Part shown: piece by piece, positions 16,337-36,910 of the stretch
Layout: the number at the start of each line of letters is the position of its first letter
Position numbering within the stretch: the first letter of the stretch is position 1
DNA from: a virus
Reading direction: 5' to 3' (one strand)
IMG/VR virus record: IMGVR_UViG_3300001683_000023
Span: 1-41,501 of that record
Length of the DNA: 41,501 nucleotides
Notes under the pieces: model-generated
Told to the model about the DNA's origin: nothing
Database searches by the model: none
What the model saw: the letters and a program-made list of their open reading frames with translations, nothing else
Translations under genes and position numbers: made by a program

Positions 16337-16412
16337 TGGAGCGGATAGTCAGAATTGAACTGACCTTATCGGGTTGGAAACCCAATGTATTAACCGATAT
16401 ACGATACCCGCT
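16337..16412 (-). tRNA. tRNA-Gly (anticodon TCC)
   Basis: A complete 76-nt cloverleaf reads on the minus strand. The acceptor stem AGCGGGT pairs with ATCCGCT (one G-T wobble). The T stem is GTCAG/CTGAC with a 7-base loop. The anticodon stem TTGGG/CCCGA encloses TTTCCAA, giving anticodon TCC, which reads GGA. The 3' CCA is encoded. The D arm is short. It lies between the helicase and the tandem-repeat protein and would be cut from the leftward transcript. Confidence 0.9.
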
Positions 16413-18911: not shown

Positions 18912-19002
18912 AATTGTCTCCTTTTTGTTGTTATGTCGATTCTATATAGTAGCAGTAGAATCTACATGTTTTTAACTTCTGCTACGAAGCTTTTGTTTTT
19001 AT
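18912..19002 (-). promoter_or_regulatory. structured 5' leader of the ssDNA-binding gene
   Basis: The region between the putative transcription start and the ATG holds an inverted repeat (GATTCTA/TAGAATC on the minus strand, about 18940-18964) and a smaller CTTC/GAAG hairpin. These lie between promoter and Shine-Dalgarno and could stabilise the message or be RNase III processing sites, as in T7 leaders. This is pattern-based inference. Confidence 0.45.
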
Positions 19003-19026
19003 CTCTATAAGGGCAACATAGGAATT
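19003..19026 (-). promoter_or_regulatory. putative T7-like RNA polymerase promoter, leftward
   Basis: On the minus strand a 24-base element, AATT followed by CCTATGTTGCCCTTATAGAG, is identical to two rightward copies at 33294 and 33725. The TATA-G-AG end resembles T7 (CTATAGGGAGA) and SP6 (CTATAGAAG) promoters, giving a predicted start at G 19005. It lies just after the RNA polymerase gene and before the ssDNA-binding/helicase/exonuclease block, the natural place for a middle promoter. Confidence 0.75.
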
Positions 19027-19052: not shown

Positions 19053-21488
19053 CTAACAGAAGAAATATTCTGATTCCCTTATTTGTTCCAATTTTAAGTC
19101 CCCTTGATTGGGTACTTTTGCATCGAAACTTTCATCACAATTGACAAACTGTTCGTACATTTTGGTTATTACGTTACAGCTGTACATTCCAATAAATACC
19201 TCTTTGGTTGTTTCCAGTAATTCGTCTACATCATCAGCATGAACTGAAAATGAATCATGGATAGCCCCAAATGAGGAAACTCCAACGGACTTCAGATGGT
19301 TTATTACTAAACACATATGTGAAGCATCCATTGAATGAACATAGTTAGGGCTTATTCCAGACATTATCTCATGCAGAGACGGCTTGTCAGTTACCTCATG
19401 GTAGACAAGATCTATTCGTTCTTTGTTAAGTCTAACTACGGTTTTCTTTTTTCTAGTAATCCATTTCTCAGCATTGACAGGAAATCCACTTGGAGTCTCC
19501 CATTGAGCTGAGTCATAGCCTAGTTCTTTTATTCTGTGCTTTGTTAATGCTTGCAAGTAGTTTTTGATTGCTACTGGCCCTGAGCATAACGAGTTGTATG
19601 TTTCTACTAAATCCTTTGCTAGTCGGTTAGCAACAGACCTTGTTATTCCGTACTTTATTGTCATCCCAGCATCATAGCAGTCTGTGTAAATAATGTTGGC
19701 TATACAGCGAACTCCTGCATCATAAGCCTTGGTCATTGTCCCTCGTTTACTGATGCCTTTTCTGATTAGCTTCATTGGTATTGCTGCTAGTATTTTTCCA
19801 AGGTCGTTTCCAACATTTCTGTTAATAATTCCTTTGGCAACAACAATGTAGAAATCAATTGGCTTTTTCTGAGGTATTAGTCCCACCATCTTCCCAGCTA
19901 TTTCATCTTTACTCATTGCAGCAAGATGTTGTGTTCCATTTACAGAGCCATCTATAGCTATCGGTATTTGAGAGTAATAATCTCCCTCCTCAGATAGGTA
20001 ATGCACAACCTCAAAACACAAGGATAAGAATACCCAAGGCTTCTCAGCATCAAGCCATATGTCCCTAGCTTCTATTGGATCCATAGCTATCTCTAGAATA
20101 ATACCTAAGTTCTCTTCTGCCCAGTTAACTCTGTCTTGAAGAGTCATCTTGTCTACTGACATATCTGGAACACTATCCTTTTTCAAGTCAGAAACATAAT
20201 CATATTCCAACCAGTCAAGTTTCTCAATTTCGTTTGTTTTGTAAGATTGGTTAAAGCTATTTGCAATATGTATTAGTAAATGCTTGTACCCTTTATCGGT
20301 CATTAGCTTCTTTTCGGCAAACATAAGATGACCCCTTGCAAGGTCTGATGATTGATAAGAGAAGTATGGATCACGAGCATAAACCCTACCTCTAAAGTCT
20401 AGGAAACTAGCTAAGTAGAACTTGTATCCTAGCCATCCAGGCACTTTATCGTCCCCATGTATTGTGTTAATAATGAACGAATCTCTGTTTGCTTGAGATC
20501 TTATCCTTAAACATGTTTGTTTAGCTAACCAGAGCCTATTCTCAATTTCGTATACCTCTTGGCATCTCTTTACCTTTTTGATTATTGGCTTGTATTTCTT
20601 AGAAGATTGGCTTATGTTCTTTAATTGCGACTCAAGCTTGACCATCTGAGTTTCAATTGTTTTAACTGTTGCGTTGTTTCCTTTATGAGGCTCGAACAAG
20701 ATATCGTTATGATACAAATCAACATCTTTGAGTTCTTTGTTGATGCTTTCTCTCTTAATATCAAGAACGCTAAATACTCGATTTTGGCCATCTTTTGTCT
20801 CTACCCTTATGTTGGTATCAGTTAATTGTTTTTGTAGCTGTATGGATATCTCAGCTACCTTAGGGTTGACTTCCCATTGGACTTCTTCTAATGAATTAAC
20901 TGCATTTATAAAAGGCGGAGGAGTTTCTTTGTCTATTTGTATTTTTCCTTTAACTAAGATGTCTTTACATCCCATAACCATTCTTTCTTTAGAATTCCAT
21001 TTAGGATACTTTCTAATGCTTATCCCAGCCCTTTCTTTAATTGGCATCTTTATGTTGTCGAAACGTTCTCCCAATTCAAGATGGTAAGGCTGAAACCTTA
21101 TTTTCCTTTTCTTACCATCGATAACTATCTCATCATAGGTTAAGAAATCTTCTCTATGCAAAGTTAAATACTTATTCTTTATCAAAGATTCAACAATTAA
21201 CGAGCCTAATTGAGCGCTCTTATTTGTATTTGGATTTGGAACGTCTAGTGCTTTTGTTGCAATTTCTCCTATCTTGATCAATGTGTTAGTTAGCCAAATC
21301 ATTCCGTTATGTTTACAGAATGAATAAGTTAAATAGTTAAAAGTGTCTAGGACTATTGAATAAGAGCGAAAGTCATCTCTTAAACATTTGGCGTTTCTAA
21401 ATATTTGAACTGCAGATCTTTTGTTATTCTTAAAGTCTGTTATTTTGTTTTCTATATCCCATACAACCTCTTGTACTTTGTATTCCAT
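19053..21488 (-). CDS. T7-like DNA-dependent RNA polymerase, 811 aa
   Basis: Single-subunit phage RNA polymerase with motif A A-I-D-G-S-V-N-G-T-Q-H (catalytic Asp513), motif B K577-x3-K581-R-G-T-M-T-K-A-Y589, the conserved Y-V-H-S-M-D-A-S-H segment (716-724) and motif C I-H-D-S-F (Asp745). Its length is near T7 gp1 (883). Two departures from T7 are seen: the residue matching T7 Arg627 is Lys577, and Gly640 after the motif B Tyr is Asp590. The gene lies in the leftward early unit; its probable targets are the three 24-base promoters at 19003, 33294 and 33725. The enzyme should drive middle and late genes. ATG 21488 follows AAAAGGGGATTT. Confidence 0.95.
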   Translation of the reverse strand: MEYKVQEVVWDIENKITDFKNNKRSAVQIFRNAKCLRDDFRSYSIVLDTFNYLTYSFCKHNGMIWLTNTLIKIGEIATKALDVPNPNTNKSAQLGSLIVESLIKNKYLTLHREDFLTYDEIVIDGKKRKIRFQPYHLELGERFDNIKMPIKERAGISIRKYPKWNSKERMVMGCKDILVKGKIQIDKETPPPFINAVNSLEEVQWEVNPKVAEISIQLQKQLTDTNIRVETKDGQNRVFSVLDIKRESINKELKDVDLYHNDILFEPHKGNNATVKTIETQMVKLESQLKNISQSSKKYKPIIKKVKRCQEVYEIENRLWLAKQTCLRIRSQANRDSFIINTIHGDDKVPGWLGYKFYLASFLDFRGRVYARDPYFSYQSSDLARGHLMFAEKKLMTDKGYKHLLIHIANSFNQSYKTNEIEKLDWLEYDYVSDLKKDSVPDMSVDKMTLQDRVNWAEENLGIILEIAMDPIEARDIWLDAEKPWVFLSLCFEVVHYLSEEGDYYSQIPIAIDGSVNGTQHLAAMSKDEIAGKMVGLIPQKKPIDFYIVVAKGIINRNVGNDLGKILAAIPMKLIRKGISKRGTMTKAYDAGVRCIANIIYTDCYDAGMTIKYGITRSVANRLAKDLVETYNSLCSGPVAIKNYLQALTKHRIKELGYDSAQWETPSGFPVNAEKWITRKKKTVVRLNKERIDLVYHEVTDKPSLHEIMSGISPNYVHSMDASHMCLVINHLKSVGVSSFGAIHDSFSVHADDVDELLETTKEVFIGMYSCNVITKMYEQFVNCDESFDAKVPNQGDLKLEQIRESEYFFC

Positions 21489-32184: not shown

Positions 32185-32211
32185 CTACCTAGAAGACACA
32201 GCGTGTCTTCC
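32185..32211 (-). promoter_or_regulatory. triloop hairpin, putative virion-polymerase promoter copy 1
   Basis: GAAGACAC-AGC-GTGTCTTC (32192-32210) is a perfect 8-bp stem with a 3-base loop, and it shares CTACCTA on the left flank with copies 2 and 3. N4 virion polymerase promoters are 5-7 bp stems with 3-base loops on the template strand, a purine at the loop centre, and transcription starting about 11 bases away. With the plus strand as template, the loop centre is G and RNA would run left from about 32188 into ssb. No T-run follows, so it is not a terminator. Confidence 0.6.
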
Positions 32212-32673: not shown

Positions 32674-32699
32674 GATGACCTCCTGGTCGTTAGTTATAA
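32671..32699 (-). repeat. 29-bp direct repeat containing the start and Shine-Dalgarno, copy A
   Basis: The same 29 bases recur exactly at 32808-32836. Read leftward they end in a start codon and hold GACCAGGAGGTC (32677-32688), a self-complementary segment (GACC/GGTC) with the AGGA of the Shine-Dalgarno in its loop. Confidence 0.85.
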
Positions 32700-32810: not shown

Positions 32811-32836
32811 GATGACCTCCTGGTCGTTAGTTATAA
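32808..32836 (-). repeat. 29-bp direct repeat containing the start and Shine-Dalgarno, copy B
   Basis: Identical to 32671-32699. A third, shorter copy (GACCAGGAGGTC at 33185-33196) precedes the gene at 32887-33180. The repeats suggest either recent duplication of the leader or shared translational control. Confidence 0.85.
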
Positions 32837-32844
32837 AAAAGAAG

Positions 32845-32871
32845 CTACCTAGAAGACACAGCGTGTCTTCC
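32845..32871 (-). promoter_or_regulatory. triloop hairpin, putative virion-polymerase promoter copy 2
   Basis: GAAGACAC-AGC-GTGTCTTC at 32852-32870 is identical to copy 1 with the same left flank (CTACCTA) and right flank (CAAG). The near edge of the stem lies 42 bases from the start codon of the downstream leftward gene (32810), almost exactly as in copy 3. That fixed spacing and the conserved left flank point to leftward transcription starting near 32848. Confidence 0.62.
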
Positions 32872-33180: not shown

Positions 33181-33212
33181 TTTTGACCTCCTGGTCGGTT
33201 GTTAAACAAAAG

Positions 33213-33266
33213 TTATCCACATAGTTATCAACAAGTTATACACAGGTTGTAGGAATATGTGGAAAA
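33213..33266. promoter_or_regulatory. DnaA-box cluster, putative replication origin
   Basis: Within 54 bases lie TTATCCACA (33213-33221, perfect consensus), TTATCAACA (33225-33233, one mismatch), TTATACACA (33236-33244, perfect TTATNCACA) and, inverted, TTTTCCACA (33258-33266). The first three start 12 and 11 bases apart, about one helical turn. The cluster stands in a long non-coding region. Host DnaA binding is the direct prediction; origin function is inferred from spacing, from the position between divergent units, and from the absence of a phage DNA polymerase. Confidence 0.72.
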
Positions 33267-33293: not shown

Positions 33294-33317
33294 AATTCCT
33301 ATGTTGCCCTTATAGAG
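33294..33317 (+). promoter_or_regulatory. putative T7-like RNA polymerase promoter, rightward, copy 1
   Basis: AATT followed by CCTATGTTGCCCTTATAGAG, identical over 24 bases to 33725-33748 and to the inverse of 19003-19026. The predicted start is G 33315. It lies just after the DnaA boxes and directly before the structured region, so the first product would be the putative RNA, with read-through to the late genes. Confidence 0.78.
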
Positions 33318-33339
33318 GAAAAAACAAAAGAGCAATGAT

Positions 33340-33722
33340 AGAATTGAGATGGGCGCAATTCTTAGCTAGTAGACCTAGCCCATCTACATAGAATCTTAGT
33401 AGTATCCATCAGCAACTAAATAGACTTCTGAATAGACCCACCTATTATCATGATAGGAAACATTAGAGGGAAGCACAGAGAACTGTGTAGTCTATTTAGT
33501 TGACTAATGGATATTTAGATAACCTTGATTGGAAACCATGAAGGAACCAATAAGGTTATTGTTAGATTCTATATAGATACTACCTGTTGAACAAGTAGTA
33601 TCTATCTAAAAACTGTAAGAAGAGAGTAGTACTTTAGGTACTTATCAGGTAGCACATACACTACTACTCTTCATAGAGTCTACAGAGGTCTAGTTAGAAC
33701 TACAGGCGTTAGATTACCTGTA
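33340..33722 (+). ncRNA. large structured putative non-coding RNA
   Basis: No credible reading frame exists here, but strong helices follow one another. An H-type pseudoknot: AGAATTG 33340-33346 with 33356-33362, interlocked with GATGGGC 33348-33354 and 33378-33384. TATCCAT 33403-33409 pairs with 33507-33513 and encloses a perfect 14-bp helix (33413-33426/33489-33502) that closes a junction with hairpins at 33441-33457 and 33474-33487. Then come 8-bp 33519-33526/33552-33559, 11-bp 33573-33583/33595-33605, 9-bp 33623-33631/33662-33670, and 6-bp 33701-33706/33717-33722. It starts about 25 bases after a phage promoter and stops just before the next. I do not recognise a known RNA family. Confidence 0.7.
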
Positions 33723-33724
33723 AT

Positions 33725-33748
33725 AATTCCTATGTTGCCCTTATAGAG
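33725..33748 (+). promoter_or_regulatory. putative T7-like RNA polymerase promoter, rightward, copy 2
   Basis: Second rightward copy of the 24-base element, predicted start G 33746, 431 bases after the first. It lies immediately 3' of the last RNA hairpin. Transcription would cross the two small minus-strand genes as antisense and then enter the terminase and portal genes. Confidence 0.78.
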
Positions 33749-33750
33749 GA

Positions 33751-33842
33751 AGAAACAGACCCTCAGAGTCACGAGGATGTGTTTCTAGCGTACTTTACGA
33801 GTGACGCATAGTAGCATCACCGTAAGTGGTTGGAAGCTACTG
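33751..33842 (+). other. hairpins at the start of the late transcript
   Basis: AGAAACA (33751-33757) pairs with TGTTTCT (33780-33786), with CCTC/GAGG nested inside. A second hairpin pairs AGTAGC with GCTACT around 33810-33841. A stable 5' end of late mRNA (as in T7 leaders) or part of the same RNA element is possible. No reading frame is seen. Confidence 0.5.
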
Positions 33843-34509: not shown

Positions 34510-34536
34510 CTACCTAGAAGACACATCGTGTCTTCC
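34510..34536 (-). promoter_or_regulatory. triloop hairpin, putative virion-polymerase promoter copy 3
   Basis: GAAGACAC-ATC-GTGTCTTC (34517-34535) keeps the 8-bp stem and the left flank CTACCTA, but the loop is ATC rather than AGC and the right flank differs. Conservation only of the left flank agrees with leftward transcription from about 34514. The loop centre on the plus strand is T, so an N4-like purine rule would be broken here; on the minus strand it is A. Confidence 0.58.
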
Positions 34537-34680: not shown

Positions 34681-35157
34681 ATGGCTATTAGTAAAGTAAA
34701 AGAAGACAAGGTAAGCAAGAAGCTGAACAAGGTTTTGCTTGCCAAGAATCCGAATGCCGAGACCATCCCTATGAAGAGTAAACAGTCTCTTGGTAGTTTA
34801 AGTATTGCTGAGTCTGGTAAGGCTACTCAGTTTAAGCCAGGGGTAAGTGGGAATCCAGCAGGAAGACCCAAAGGCTCTAAAAATAAAAATAAGAATACTG
34901 GGCCTACTGTATCTGAGGCCTTTGCTGATCTTAACGATAGGTTGATGAGTAATGGAGAGATGTTGGCAGCTATTGCTGAGAAGGCTCTCCGAGAGGATAC
35001 GATGACAGGGTTAAAGATTGCCTTGGAATGCGTTAAGGAAGCTAATAAATATATTGAACCCACTATGGATGCTAAAGAAGCTAATAAGCAAGCACCTATT
35101 GAGGACCTAACTCAACAAGAAATTAAGGAAAGACTGTTTAAGATTGTTAACGACTAA
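34681..35157 (+). CDS. DUF5681-type, putative small terminase subunit, 158 aa
   Basis: AAAGGAGCTAT precedes ATG 34681. Residues 51-70 match the F-K-P-G-x-S-G-N-P-A-G-R-P-K-G-S-K-N-K signature of DUF5681, a basic AT-hook-like segment often encoded just before phage large terminases. The remainder is helical. In this position it probably recognises the packaging site and guides the large subunit. The lack of a clear helix-turn-helix leaves some doubt. Confidence 0.7.
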   Translation: MAISKVKEDKVSKKLNKVLLAKNPNAETIPMKSKQSLGSLSIAESGKATQFKPGVSGNPAGRPKGSKNKNKNTGPTVSEAFADLNDRLMSNGEMLAAIAEKALREDTMTGLKIALECVKEANKYIEPTMDAKEANKQAPIEDLTQQEIKERLFKIVND

Positions 35158-35168
35158 GGAGGTAACAG

Positions 35169-35279
35169 ATGCAAAAGCTGATTGATTTGATGAAAGACAT
35201 CATTGCATTTTTAAAGAAAGGTATTACAAAGAAGAGAGGGCCTGGTAGACCTAAGGGATCTAAAAATAAAAAGAAATGA
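35169..35279 (+). CDS. AT-hook micro-protein, 36 aa
   Basis: AAGGAGGTAACAG precedes ATG 35169, a very strong leader, and the TGA overlaps the large terminase ATG (ATGA). A helical N-terminus leads into R-G-P-G-R-P-K-G-S-K-N-K-K-K, a classic AT-hook (minor-groove binder). It repeats the motif of the preceding protein, so it may assist DNA recognition in packaging. Confidence 0.75.
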   Translation: MQKLIDLMKDIIAFLKKGITKKRGPGRPKGSKNKKK

Positions 35280-36910
35280 AGAAAGAATATGAAGCTTCTG
35301 AGCTGTTAGAAGAATTAGAAAAAAGAAAAACCTGGAAAAGATGGAAGGTAGATCCAAAGGCTTTTATTGAAGAATCTTTAATGATCTATCCTAAGGATGC
35401 TGATAAGGGTCTTATTCATCTGAAAGTTAACAAAGCCCAAGAGGTTGTTGTTGATGAGTATATTAAGCAGATGAAAGAAATCGGATATGTCCGAATGATT
35501 ATCAGTAAGTATCGTCAGGCAGGGTTCTCAACTATTAGTTCAGCATTAATCTTTCACAGGACTCTATTTTTTAAGAATACGAGAGCTGTAATTATTAGTC
35601 TTGATAAGCCAACAACTGAGAGTATTTTCAGTATGAGTAAGACATTCTGGGAGAATCTTCCTGAGAATATTAAGCCAAAGTTAGGGGTATCGAATAAGAG
35701 GGAAATGGTCTTTAAGGAGAATGATTCTAAATTTAGATTGTTCACTGCAGGAGCAGATAACCCAGGAAGAGGTACAACTAATACTGCATTGCTTTGTGAT
35801 GAAACGGCTTTCTTCCAGAATGCTGATAAGGTTATGGCTGGACTATTCCAGTCTGTAGCGCTCACTAAAGGTAGTATTATTATCATCAATAGCACCTCTA
35901 ACGGTGCTCAAGGTGTTTATTACGACCTATGGAATAAAGCTGAGAAAGGGGAAGGTAACTTTACTCCTTTGTTTGTGCCTTGGTATCTACAAGATGAGTA
36001 CAGGCTTAAGTGTCCCGACAATGTCGAATTAACTCCCGATGAGGTTAGGCTAAAGGAAAGATGGGCATTAGATAACGAGCAGATCTTCTGGAGAAGGATT
36101 AAGATTGCAGAGACATCCACAGCGATGTTTAAGCAGGAGTATCCTTTTACAGCTGAAGAAAGCTTCTTACAAAGTGGTAGTTCTGTATTCAGTAAAGAAA
36201 CCCTTGACAGGTATGTGCCTTATGATCCTGAAAGCGTCCGAGAGTATAACGATGACTACTCAGCCTTTGACGAATCAAGTGAAGGCAACTTATCTTTGTG
36301 GCAAGCCCCCAAAAGGGACATGAAGTATCTAATAGGTGCAGATGTCGCTTTAGGTGTGAAAGGGGACTATTCGGTAGCAACAGTAATGACGAAAGATAGG
36401 GAAGTTGTAGCTATTTATAGAAGTAATAGAACGGATCCTGTAAGGTATGGAAAAATTCTTTTTTACTTAGGTAGGTGGTTTAACAATGCTTTGATTTGCC
36501 CTGAGGCAAACTCAATCGGTGTAGCAACTGTTCAGCAGTTATTTGGTATGAATTATCCGAATATATATCAACAAAGAAAGACTGCTAATACAGTTCCAGA
36601 TAGTATTAACCATCTTGGATTTAAGACAACTTCAGCAACAAGAGCTCCAATTATTTCTAATTTAAGAAGAATGATTGAAGATGAAGATATAGCGATTCCT
36701 AGTAGTTTGATAATAGAAGAATTAAGAAATTTTATTATCACACCAAATGGAAAAGCAGAGGCTTCAGTAGGACATCATGATGACATGGTTATGAGTTTAG
36801 CAATTACTTGTGAGGCTTATCGTACACATGGTCATTCATTAACTAACCAAACCTTTAGTTGGGGAGAGATTAATTCTCAGTATCAAACCCCAGATACTAA
36901 GTGGCTTTAA
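35276..36910 (+). CDS. terL: terminase large subunit, 544 aa
   Basis: The ATP-driven packaging motor and nuclease. An adenine/Walker-A-like segment K-Y-R-Q-A-G-F-S-T (78-86) replaces the classic GKT, as in many K-x-R-Q-x-G-F-S-T terminases. Walker B is L-L-C-D-E-T (Asp175, Glu176). The RNase-H-fold nuclease has G-A-D-V-A (Asp356), G-D-Y-S (Asp364) and the C-terminal G-H-H-D-D (Asp502/503). The length is standard. The start ATG 35276 overlaps the AT-hook gene stop and lacks its own strong Shine-Dalgarno, so it is coupled to that gene. Confidence 0.93.
   Translation: MKKEYEASELLEELEKRKTWKRWKVDPKAFIEESLMIYPKDADKGLIHLKVNKAQEVVVDEYIKQMKEIGYVRMIISKYRQAGFSTISSALIFHRTLFFKNTRAVIISLDKPTTESIFSMSKTFWENLPENIKPKLGVSNKREMVFKENDSKFRLFTAGADNPGRGTTNTALLCDETAFFQNADKVMAGLFQSVALTKGSIIIINSTSNGAQGVYYDLWNKAEKGEGNFTPLFVPWYLQDEYRLKCPDNVELTPDEVRLKERWALDNEQIFWRRIKIAETSTAMFKQEYPFTAEESFLQSGSSVFSKETLDRYVPYDPESVREYNDDYSAFDESSEGNLSLWQAPKRDMKYLIGADVALGVKGDYSVATVMTKDREVVAIYRSNRTDPVRYGKILFYLGRWFNNALICPEANSIGVATVQQLFGMNYPNIYQQRKTANTVPDSINHLGFKTTSATRAPIISNLRRMIEDEDIAIPSSLIIEELRNFIITPNGKAEASVGHHDDMVMSLAITCEAYRTHGHSLTNQTFSWGEINSQYQTPDTKWL

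Follow-up and report, generated by a model that had tools for sequence, protein, structure and literature searches.

A conserved four-way-junction RNA downstream of the putative late promoter in a group of uncultured phages

Genomic organization of the locus

The DNA analyzed here (the window; 41,501 nucleotides) is part of a 42,498-base virus record and belongs to a presumably marine phage. The genes for a single-subunit RNA polymerase, a helicase, and a primase are on the minus strand, and the packaging genes are on the plus strand (Table 1). Judged by the large terminase subunit (TerL), the closest cultured phage is Roseobacter phage CRP-7 (43.8% identity), a podovirus whose polymerase shares less than 25% identity with those of the Autographivirinae (PMC6918029). 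A host search in GTDB genomes returned a single distant TerL (31%), from a genome with no copy of the RNA described below.

No open reading frame (ORF) of at least 60 amino acids is present between 33181 and 33850. Within this region are two identical copies of a 27-bp element, AATTCCTATGTTGCCCTTATAGAGGAA, and a third copy with two mismatches is found on the minus strand at 19000-19026, where it adjoins the 3' end of the RNA polymerase gene and has no structured RNA beside it. Zero copies are expected in shuffled sequences, against the three detected in the window. The 27-mers terminate in CCTTATAGAG(G). In related phages, the copies agree within each genome and differ between clades (CCTATGTTGCCCTTATAGAG; CCTATTGTGTCCTTATAGAG; CCTAAGAGCTCCTTATAGAG; CTCGGGNNNCCCCTTATAGG), so that the sequence of the first promoter varies by clade and its place ahead of the RNA is kept. 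On these sequence grounds, we infer that the 27-bp elements behave as phage-polymerase promoters, their presumed reader being the phage's own single-subunit RNA polymerase.

Other repeats are found nearby. The hairpin CTACCTAGAAGACACANCGTGTCTTCC occurs in three exact or near-exact copies (32185-32211, 32845-32871, and 34510-34536) beside small minus-strand genes and is perhaps a repeated terminator or processing site. An exact 25-bp repeat, ATGACCTCCTGGTCGTTAGTTATAA, is located at the starts of small minus-strand genes (32675-32699 and 32812-32836) and appears to be a duplicated ribosome-binding leader.

Table 1. Features of the locus and of the structured element in the window.
Feature	Position	Strand	Remarks
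DnaA-box-like cluster	33210-33266	.	TTATCCACA, TTATCAACA, TTATACACA and an inverted box, about 30 to 80 nt ahead of promoter 1
First late phage-RNA-polymerase promoter (putative)	33294-33320	+	Exact repeat; predicted transcript start about 33312
5' H-type pseudoknot	33340-33384	+	Stems S1 and S2, read from the sequence
Conserved core, four-way junction P2/P3/P4/P6	33405-33512	+	Covariance models R1 and R2
P2, closing helix (33413-33426 with 33489-33502)	33413-33502	+	14 perfect pairs
P3, hairpin UCU-GAAU-AGA	33427-33436	+	Two-sided changes in 3/3 pairs
P4, CCC (33437-33439) with GGG (33468-33470), enclosing hairpin P5 (33441-33457)	33437-33470	+	
P6, hairpin	33473-33488	+	Two-sided changes in 5/6 pairs
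Variable 3' tail, lineage-specific hairpins	33513-33724	+	z = -4.6 versus shuffles, yet unconserved
Second promoter (putative), identical to the first, 3' of the RNA	33725-33751	+	Exact repeat
Single-subunit RNA polymerase	19053-21488	-	PHROG phrog_414, 3.5e-109; promoter copy at 19000-19026
Terminase small subunit-like gene (terS)	34681-35157	+	GNPAGRPKGSKNK motif; first late gene on the plus strand
Terminase large subunit (terL)	35276-36910	+	PHROG phrog_2, 6.5e-31

Structure of the element

The element begins with an H-type pseudoknot of two 7-bp stems, S1 (33340-33346/33356-33362, AGAAUUG/CAAUUCU) and S2 (33348-33354/33378-33384, GAUGGGC/GCCCAUC), with connections of 1, 1, and 15 nt. It is followed by the core, where P2 closes a multibranched domain. 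The core runs in the order P2, P3, P4 (enclosing P5 and a loose 10-nt ACAUANA-like strand), GAAAG or GAAG, P6, and the second strand of P2. Both the pseudoknot and the perfect 14-bp helix had been described in the original prediction from the window sequence, and both are present exactly as claimed.

The minimum free energy of 33315-33745 is -132.9 kcal/mol, with z = -7.1 on the plus strand relative to shuffles. Together with the lack of an ORF and the identical elements on either side, this bears out the proposal of a structured noncoding region between two tandem putative phage promoters. The minus strand of the same region folds even better (z = -9.4) because the same long dyads are present on it; the plus strand is favored over it because of the promoter direction and the G-U/A-C asymmetry reported below. 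Taken piece by piece, z is -6.1 for the core, -4.6 for the tail, and -1.6 for the pseudoknot, the last obtained by nested folding, which is unable to score a pseudoknot. Of the further hairpins that had been predicted, those of the tail do fold better than shuffles, but they are unconserved even in the nearest clades. In two clade B genomes, the tail is replaced by short tandem repeats (L012:4600-4690, L010:4530-4750). Its length between the core and promoter 2 also differs between the near-identical genomes L012 and L013.

Distribution in related phages

A TerL search in viral contigs yielded 80 loci. Clade letters were assigned in the present analysis as follows: A (the window, L004, and L020), B (L007, L010, L012, L013, L015, and L016), C (L024, L025, L033, L034, and L037), D (L041, L043-L046, L050, L053, L065, L066, L079, and L101), E (L049 and L060), F (L070, L071, and L073), G (L074 and L075), H (L076), and I (L355-L368). 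All relatives are uncultured contigs, many of them fragments and several near-identical. In clades A and B, the arrangement can be recognized by eye and consists of tandem promoters, DnaA-like boxes in most cases, a pseudoknot with the loop GAGAUGGGC, and an ACCCAC...GAGGGAA core. The tandem promoters are shared by L012, L013, L010, L007, L015, L016, and L020/L021. In clade C, both promoter and RNA have diverged.

The more distant relatives were reached with covariance models, for which all E values are rough since the calibration was shortened. R1, built on the core from five clade A/B sequences (alignment A4) and searched over 571 kb, detects the plus-strand core in clades outside its training set with E values of 1e-10 to 1e-3 (L060, 3.6e-10; L049, 5.4e-10; L043, 2.1e-8; L070, 1.7e-5; L024, 2.5e-5; also L066, L074, and L037), and L053 weakly (E = 0.03). 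R2, built on 15 plus-strand matches, detects left-out members at 5e-16 to 3e-6 (L053, 5.3e-16; L033, 6.9e-13; L037, 4.1e-10; L074, 2.4e-7; L076, 3.4e-6; also L020 and L066). A simple stem descriptor had already recovered the core of L076. Fifteen new viral loci came from a second TerL search, run with an alignment, and R2 found the core in all 12 that extend at least 574 bases upstream of TerL (E = 1.6e-11 to 2.9e-10). Of the first-search loci whose contigs extend 4.1 kb or more upstream of TerL, L059 alone lacks it. Overall, the core is known in about 50 related uncultured viral contigs from some ten clades, in a single copy per record, and its shape is kept across them but its sequence is not.

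No detectable copy was found in CRP-7, scanned whole with R2 and along the terminase arm with R1; a promoter-like site lies ahead of gp67 in this phage, with no core there. Loose patterns such as TGCCCA...AAGGGGAAAG searched in IMG/VR gave mostly chance matches and a few genuine new loci.

Two contigs, L006 and L008, start at the identical base within the 5' strand of P2. A genome end at the RNA was considered and rejected: L010 runs through this position and six long records have no terminal repeats, so the assembly probably broke at the inverted repeat.

Conservation and covariation

Covariation in homologues is strong. In alignment A6 (15 distinct sequences), which was fitted to the model and thereby favors pairing, 96.8% of 505 cells pair, two-sided changes occur in 29 of 34 pairs, and the covariation score is 0.729, against 0.252 ± 0.020 for shuffled alignments and at most 0.14 for slid structures. 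The unfitted MAFFT alignment A4 (five sequences) gives the same picture, with 95.3% paired and a covariation of 0.356 versus 0.191. P2 has two-sided changes in 16 of its 17 modeled pairs across the 15 sequences, and the pairs of P5 covary; the CCC/GGG of P4 is invariant in 28/28 distinct sequences.

In these 28 sequences, the plus-strand cells hold 86 G-U against 23 A-C combinations, which indicates that it is the plus-strand RNA that is kept and not a DNA dyad. The nominal binomial p of this excess, 5e-10, ignores relatedness, and the model itself favors G-U. No coding frame conserved across the relatives was seen.

Only the core of the element is universal. The 5' domain differs between clades, with the pseudoknot conserved in A to C only. 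Its S1 stem has compensatory changes at 5 of 7 pairs in seven distinct sequences from these clades (e.g., UA/AU/GC and UA/AU/CG), with 89% pairing versus 65% when shuffled; S2 is compatible with the data but unproven by covariation because its GGGC/GCCC is invariant. In clades D and E, the 5' domain consists instead of a 10-bp helix, P1, together with GCAGGG-CAU/AUG-U-CCCUGC and its inner hairpin; compensatory changes are seen here as well. No 5' domain comparable to either was found in clades F to I. As far as computation can show, it is as RNA that the conserved four-way-junction core acts, and the element as such is almost certainly real.

Genomic context and predicted ends of the transcript

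The core is always on the late strand, ahead of terS/terL, and it is downstream of a phage-type promoter wherever the contig extends that far. The promoter is clear in clades A to E; in clades F to I it is a weaker, TATATAGAT-like element. The placement that had been predicted, ahead of the packaging genes and behind a phage-type promoter, is thus seen in the window and in its relatives.

The immediate neighbors are less constant. In clades F to I, which TerL identities suggest to be outgroups, the core lies about 15 to 31 nt ahead of the terS start, with no terminator; in three clade I genomes (L365, L360, and L368), a small ORF separates it from the promoter. In clades D and E, it is 42 to 76 nt ahead of the first ORF, which is terS in L043 and L046 and another gene in most. 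In clades A to C, it is 0.9 to 2.7 kb ahead of terS, with opposite-strand genes intervening. A small IDxTKDSEY ORF, a short match, is found 5' of the RNA in L365 and 3' of it in L101. Since the neighbors move between clades, the RNA keeps its own identity and is tied to no one neighbor.

The 3' end also differs by clade. In clades D and E, at least five consecutive U's lie within about 8 nt of the end of P2 in 13 of 13 loci, versus 0 of 22 loci elsewhere, and no second promoter copy was found 3' of the RNA. Clades A and B have the identical second promoter 3' of the RNA, even though the promoter sequence differs between the two. The U-run in the former and the second promoter in the latter suggest that the RNA is made apart from the late mRNA.

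The original prediction envisaged a discrete RNA of about 430 nt. In the window, the end of the element, ahead of promoter 2, showed no terminator-like site with a U-run, so transcripts from promoter 1 presumably run on, and the lack of a terminator behind the RNA counts against a discrete product. Nor is the 430-nt unit the conserved entity: what is shared group-wide is the four-way-junction core of 105 to 150 nt.

In L043 (4503-4560), the end of P2 (TACTTAAAGAT) is repeated about 40 to 60 nt past the U-run, near the next ribosome-binding site, and equivalents occur in L041, L050, L053, L065, L066, and L101. This repeat could be an alternative pairing partner of the 5' strand of P2 or a leftover duplication.

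Comparison with known RNAs

The expectation that no known family would be recognized held in Rfam 15, where the element in the window and in 16 relatives gave no match at the gathering score. At a lax threshold (E ≤ 10), the window element gave sub-threshold chance matches only, and the packaging RNA (pRNA) of phi29-type phages is not among them. Similarly, when the window element and the RNAs of clades C, D, and E were compared by blastn with 50,697 phage genomes, only chance matches came up. No description of this RNA was found in the open literature, subscription papers being outside the scope of the search. The RNA family is, as far as Rfam, phage records, and the open literature reach, new; its mechanism may be of a known kind.

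With pRNA, the element shares being a phage-encoded structured RNA, here near the packaging genes. The pRNA is built on a three-way junction, in contrast with the four-way junction and invariant CCC/GGG helix found here, no Rfam pRNA match was obtained, and the phages studied here encode a terminase of phrog_2 together with a single-subunit, T7-like RNA polymerase. HK022 put RNA and riboswitch-type leaders are structured leaders that act on the transcription machinery and, like the present element, are promoter-proximal folded RNAs heading a phage operon. They differ from it in that a single-subunit phage polymerase is presumed here, that clades A and B have a second promoter, and that the downstream gene is inconstant. 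Nearest in kind are GOLLD and ROOL, large ornate RNAs of phages and prophages with unknown function (PMC12286853), from which the present RNA is set apart by size, place, and structure: it has no Rfam match, is smaller, and has a fixed place at the late promoter, whereas GOLLD and ROOL are found by tRNA islands and the only tRNA in the window, tRNA-Gly (16337-16411), is 17 kb off. A structured transcript beside a possible origin also recalls ColE1 RNA II and RNA-based phage replicons (PMC7157519), with the difference that signs of an origin are seen here in some clades only.

Possible function

Several explanations for the element were weighed. A chance fold, a coding sequence, or an assembly artifact has a negligible probability: the AT-rich sequence is all that speaks for it, set against the element's recurrence in about 50 contigs, the matches of held-out members to the model, the covariation, and the lack of an ORF. 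A DNA-level site, e.g., a pac site beside terS whose inverted repeats merely resemble RNA structure, would suit the ancestral-looking position next to that gene and the long dyad of P2. Such a site is nonetheless very improbable, given that G-U far above A-C on the plus strand is not favored by a DNA dyad and that covariation extends over several nested helices containing little conserved sequence. We also regard as improbable a replication primer or origin RNA (ColE1 RNA II-like or T7-origin-like), in which tandem promoters and a folded transcript would mark an origin. The DnaA-box cluster ahead of promoter 1 includes exact boxes at 33213 (plus) and 33258 (minus), the only ones in the window, and the GC-skew minimum, at about 33 kb, coincides with it; this skew, however, follows gene direction and is confounded by it. 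Boxes near the RNA, on which the predicted location beside an origin rests, are found in the window, L004, and clade B, but exact boxes are absent in L020 and in clades C to I, and no conserved AT-rich element was seen 3' of the core.

The more serious alternative, which we hold as a tentative one, is a cis-acting leader of the late mRNA, where the core in the 5' untranslated region would set stability, processing (by self-cleavage, for example, or by RNase III cleavage of the long helix P2), attenuation, or polymerase read-through into the late operon. The constant position behind the late promoter is what a leader would show, and so is the fact that in clades F to I the 5' untranslated region of terS includes the core. 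In clades D and E, moreover, late transcription must cross the U-run after P2, given that no other promoter copy was found. Against a leader, the second identical promoter of clades A and B, if active as predicted, bypasses the RNA; the next gene varies by clade, with terS up to 2.7 kb away behind opposite-strand genes in clades A to C; and some clade I genomes have an ORF interposed between the promoter and the core.

A discrete late RNA acting in trans is more likely than a leader, and we are evenly divided on whether it is the correct explanation. The strongest point against it is the core directly before terS in clades F to I, which looks like a leader and occurs in apparent outgroups. For a discrete RNA, the phage's own RNA polymerase would make it as the first product of the late (packaging and structural) strand, probably in excess of the late mRNA and separately from it. 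In clades D and E, the closing helix P2 and the U-run would serve as a terminator, and in clades A and B, the fresh promoter copy behind the RNA would let the late mRNA start without it. As a folded late RNA, it would then exert its effect in trans. Its likeliest single partner would, speculatively, be the machinery of DNA packaging or head assembly, which would give it a role like that of pRNA in the absence of homology.

Packaging or assembly is the likeliest single function, but is speculative and rather doubtful. The link to the packaging genes is confounded because the late promoter always precedes these genes. Furthermore, CRP-7 (TerL 44%) has no recognizable copy; packaging of such a kind therefore works without the RNA, unless it has diverged beyond recognition. 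It is more doubtful still that the element represents a second, independently evolved phage RNA of packaging or assembly type, in which case podoviruses with a T7-like polymerase would transcribe a discrete four-way-junction RNA from their late promoter and use it as an RNA component of the machine for DNA packaging or head assembly.

Implications for phage biology

RNA families with such covariation and so fixed a genomic place usually have an essential task, and only a few phage examples are known. The presence of this RNA in nearly every member of a broad, uncultured phage group whose contig reaches far enough upstream makes it a ready, testable object for the roles of late RNAs, for which packaging, late transcription, and mRNA processing are the candidates that it poses. 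If it were a true packaging RNA, phi29 would no longer be the sole well-known case, and if it were a leader acting on a single-subunit RNA polymerase, this would be unusual as well.
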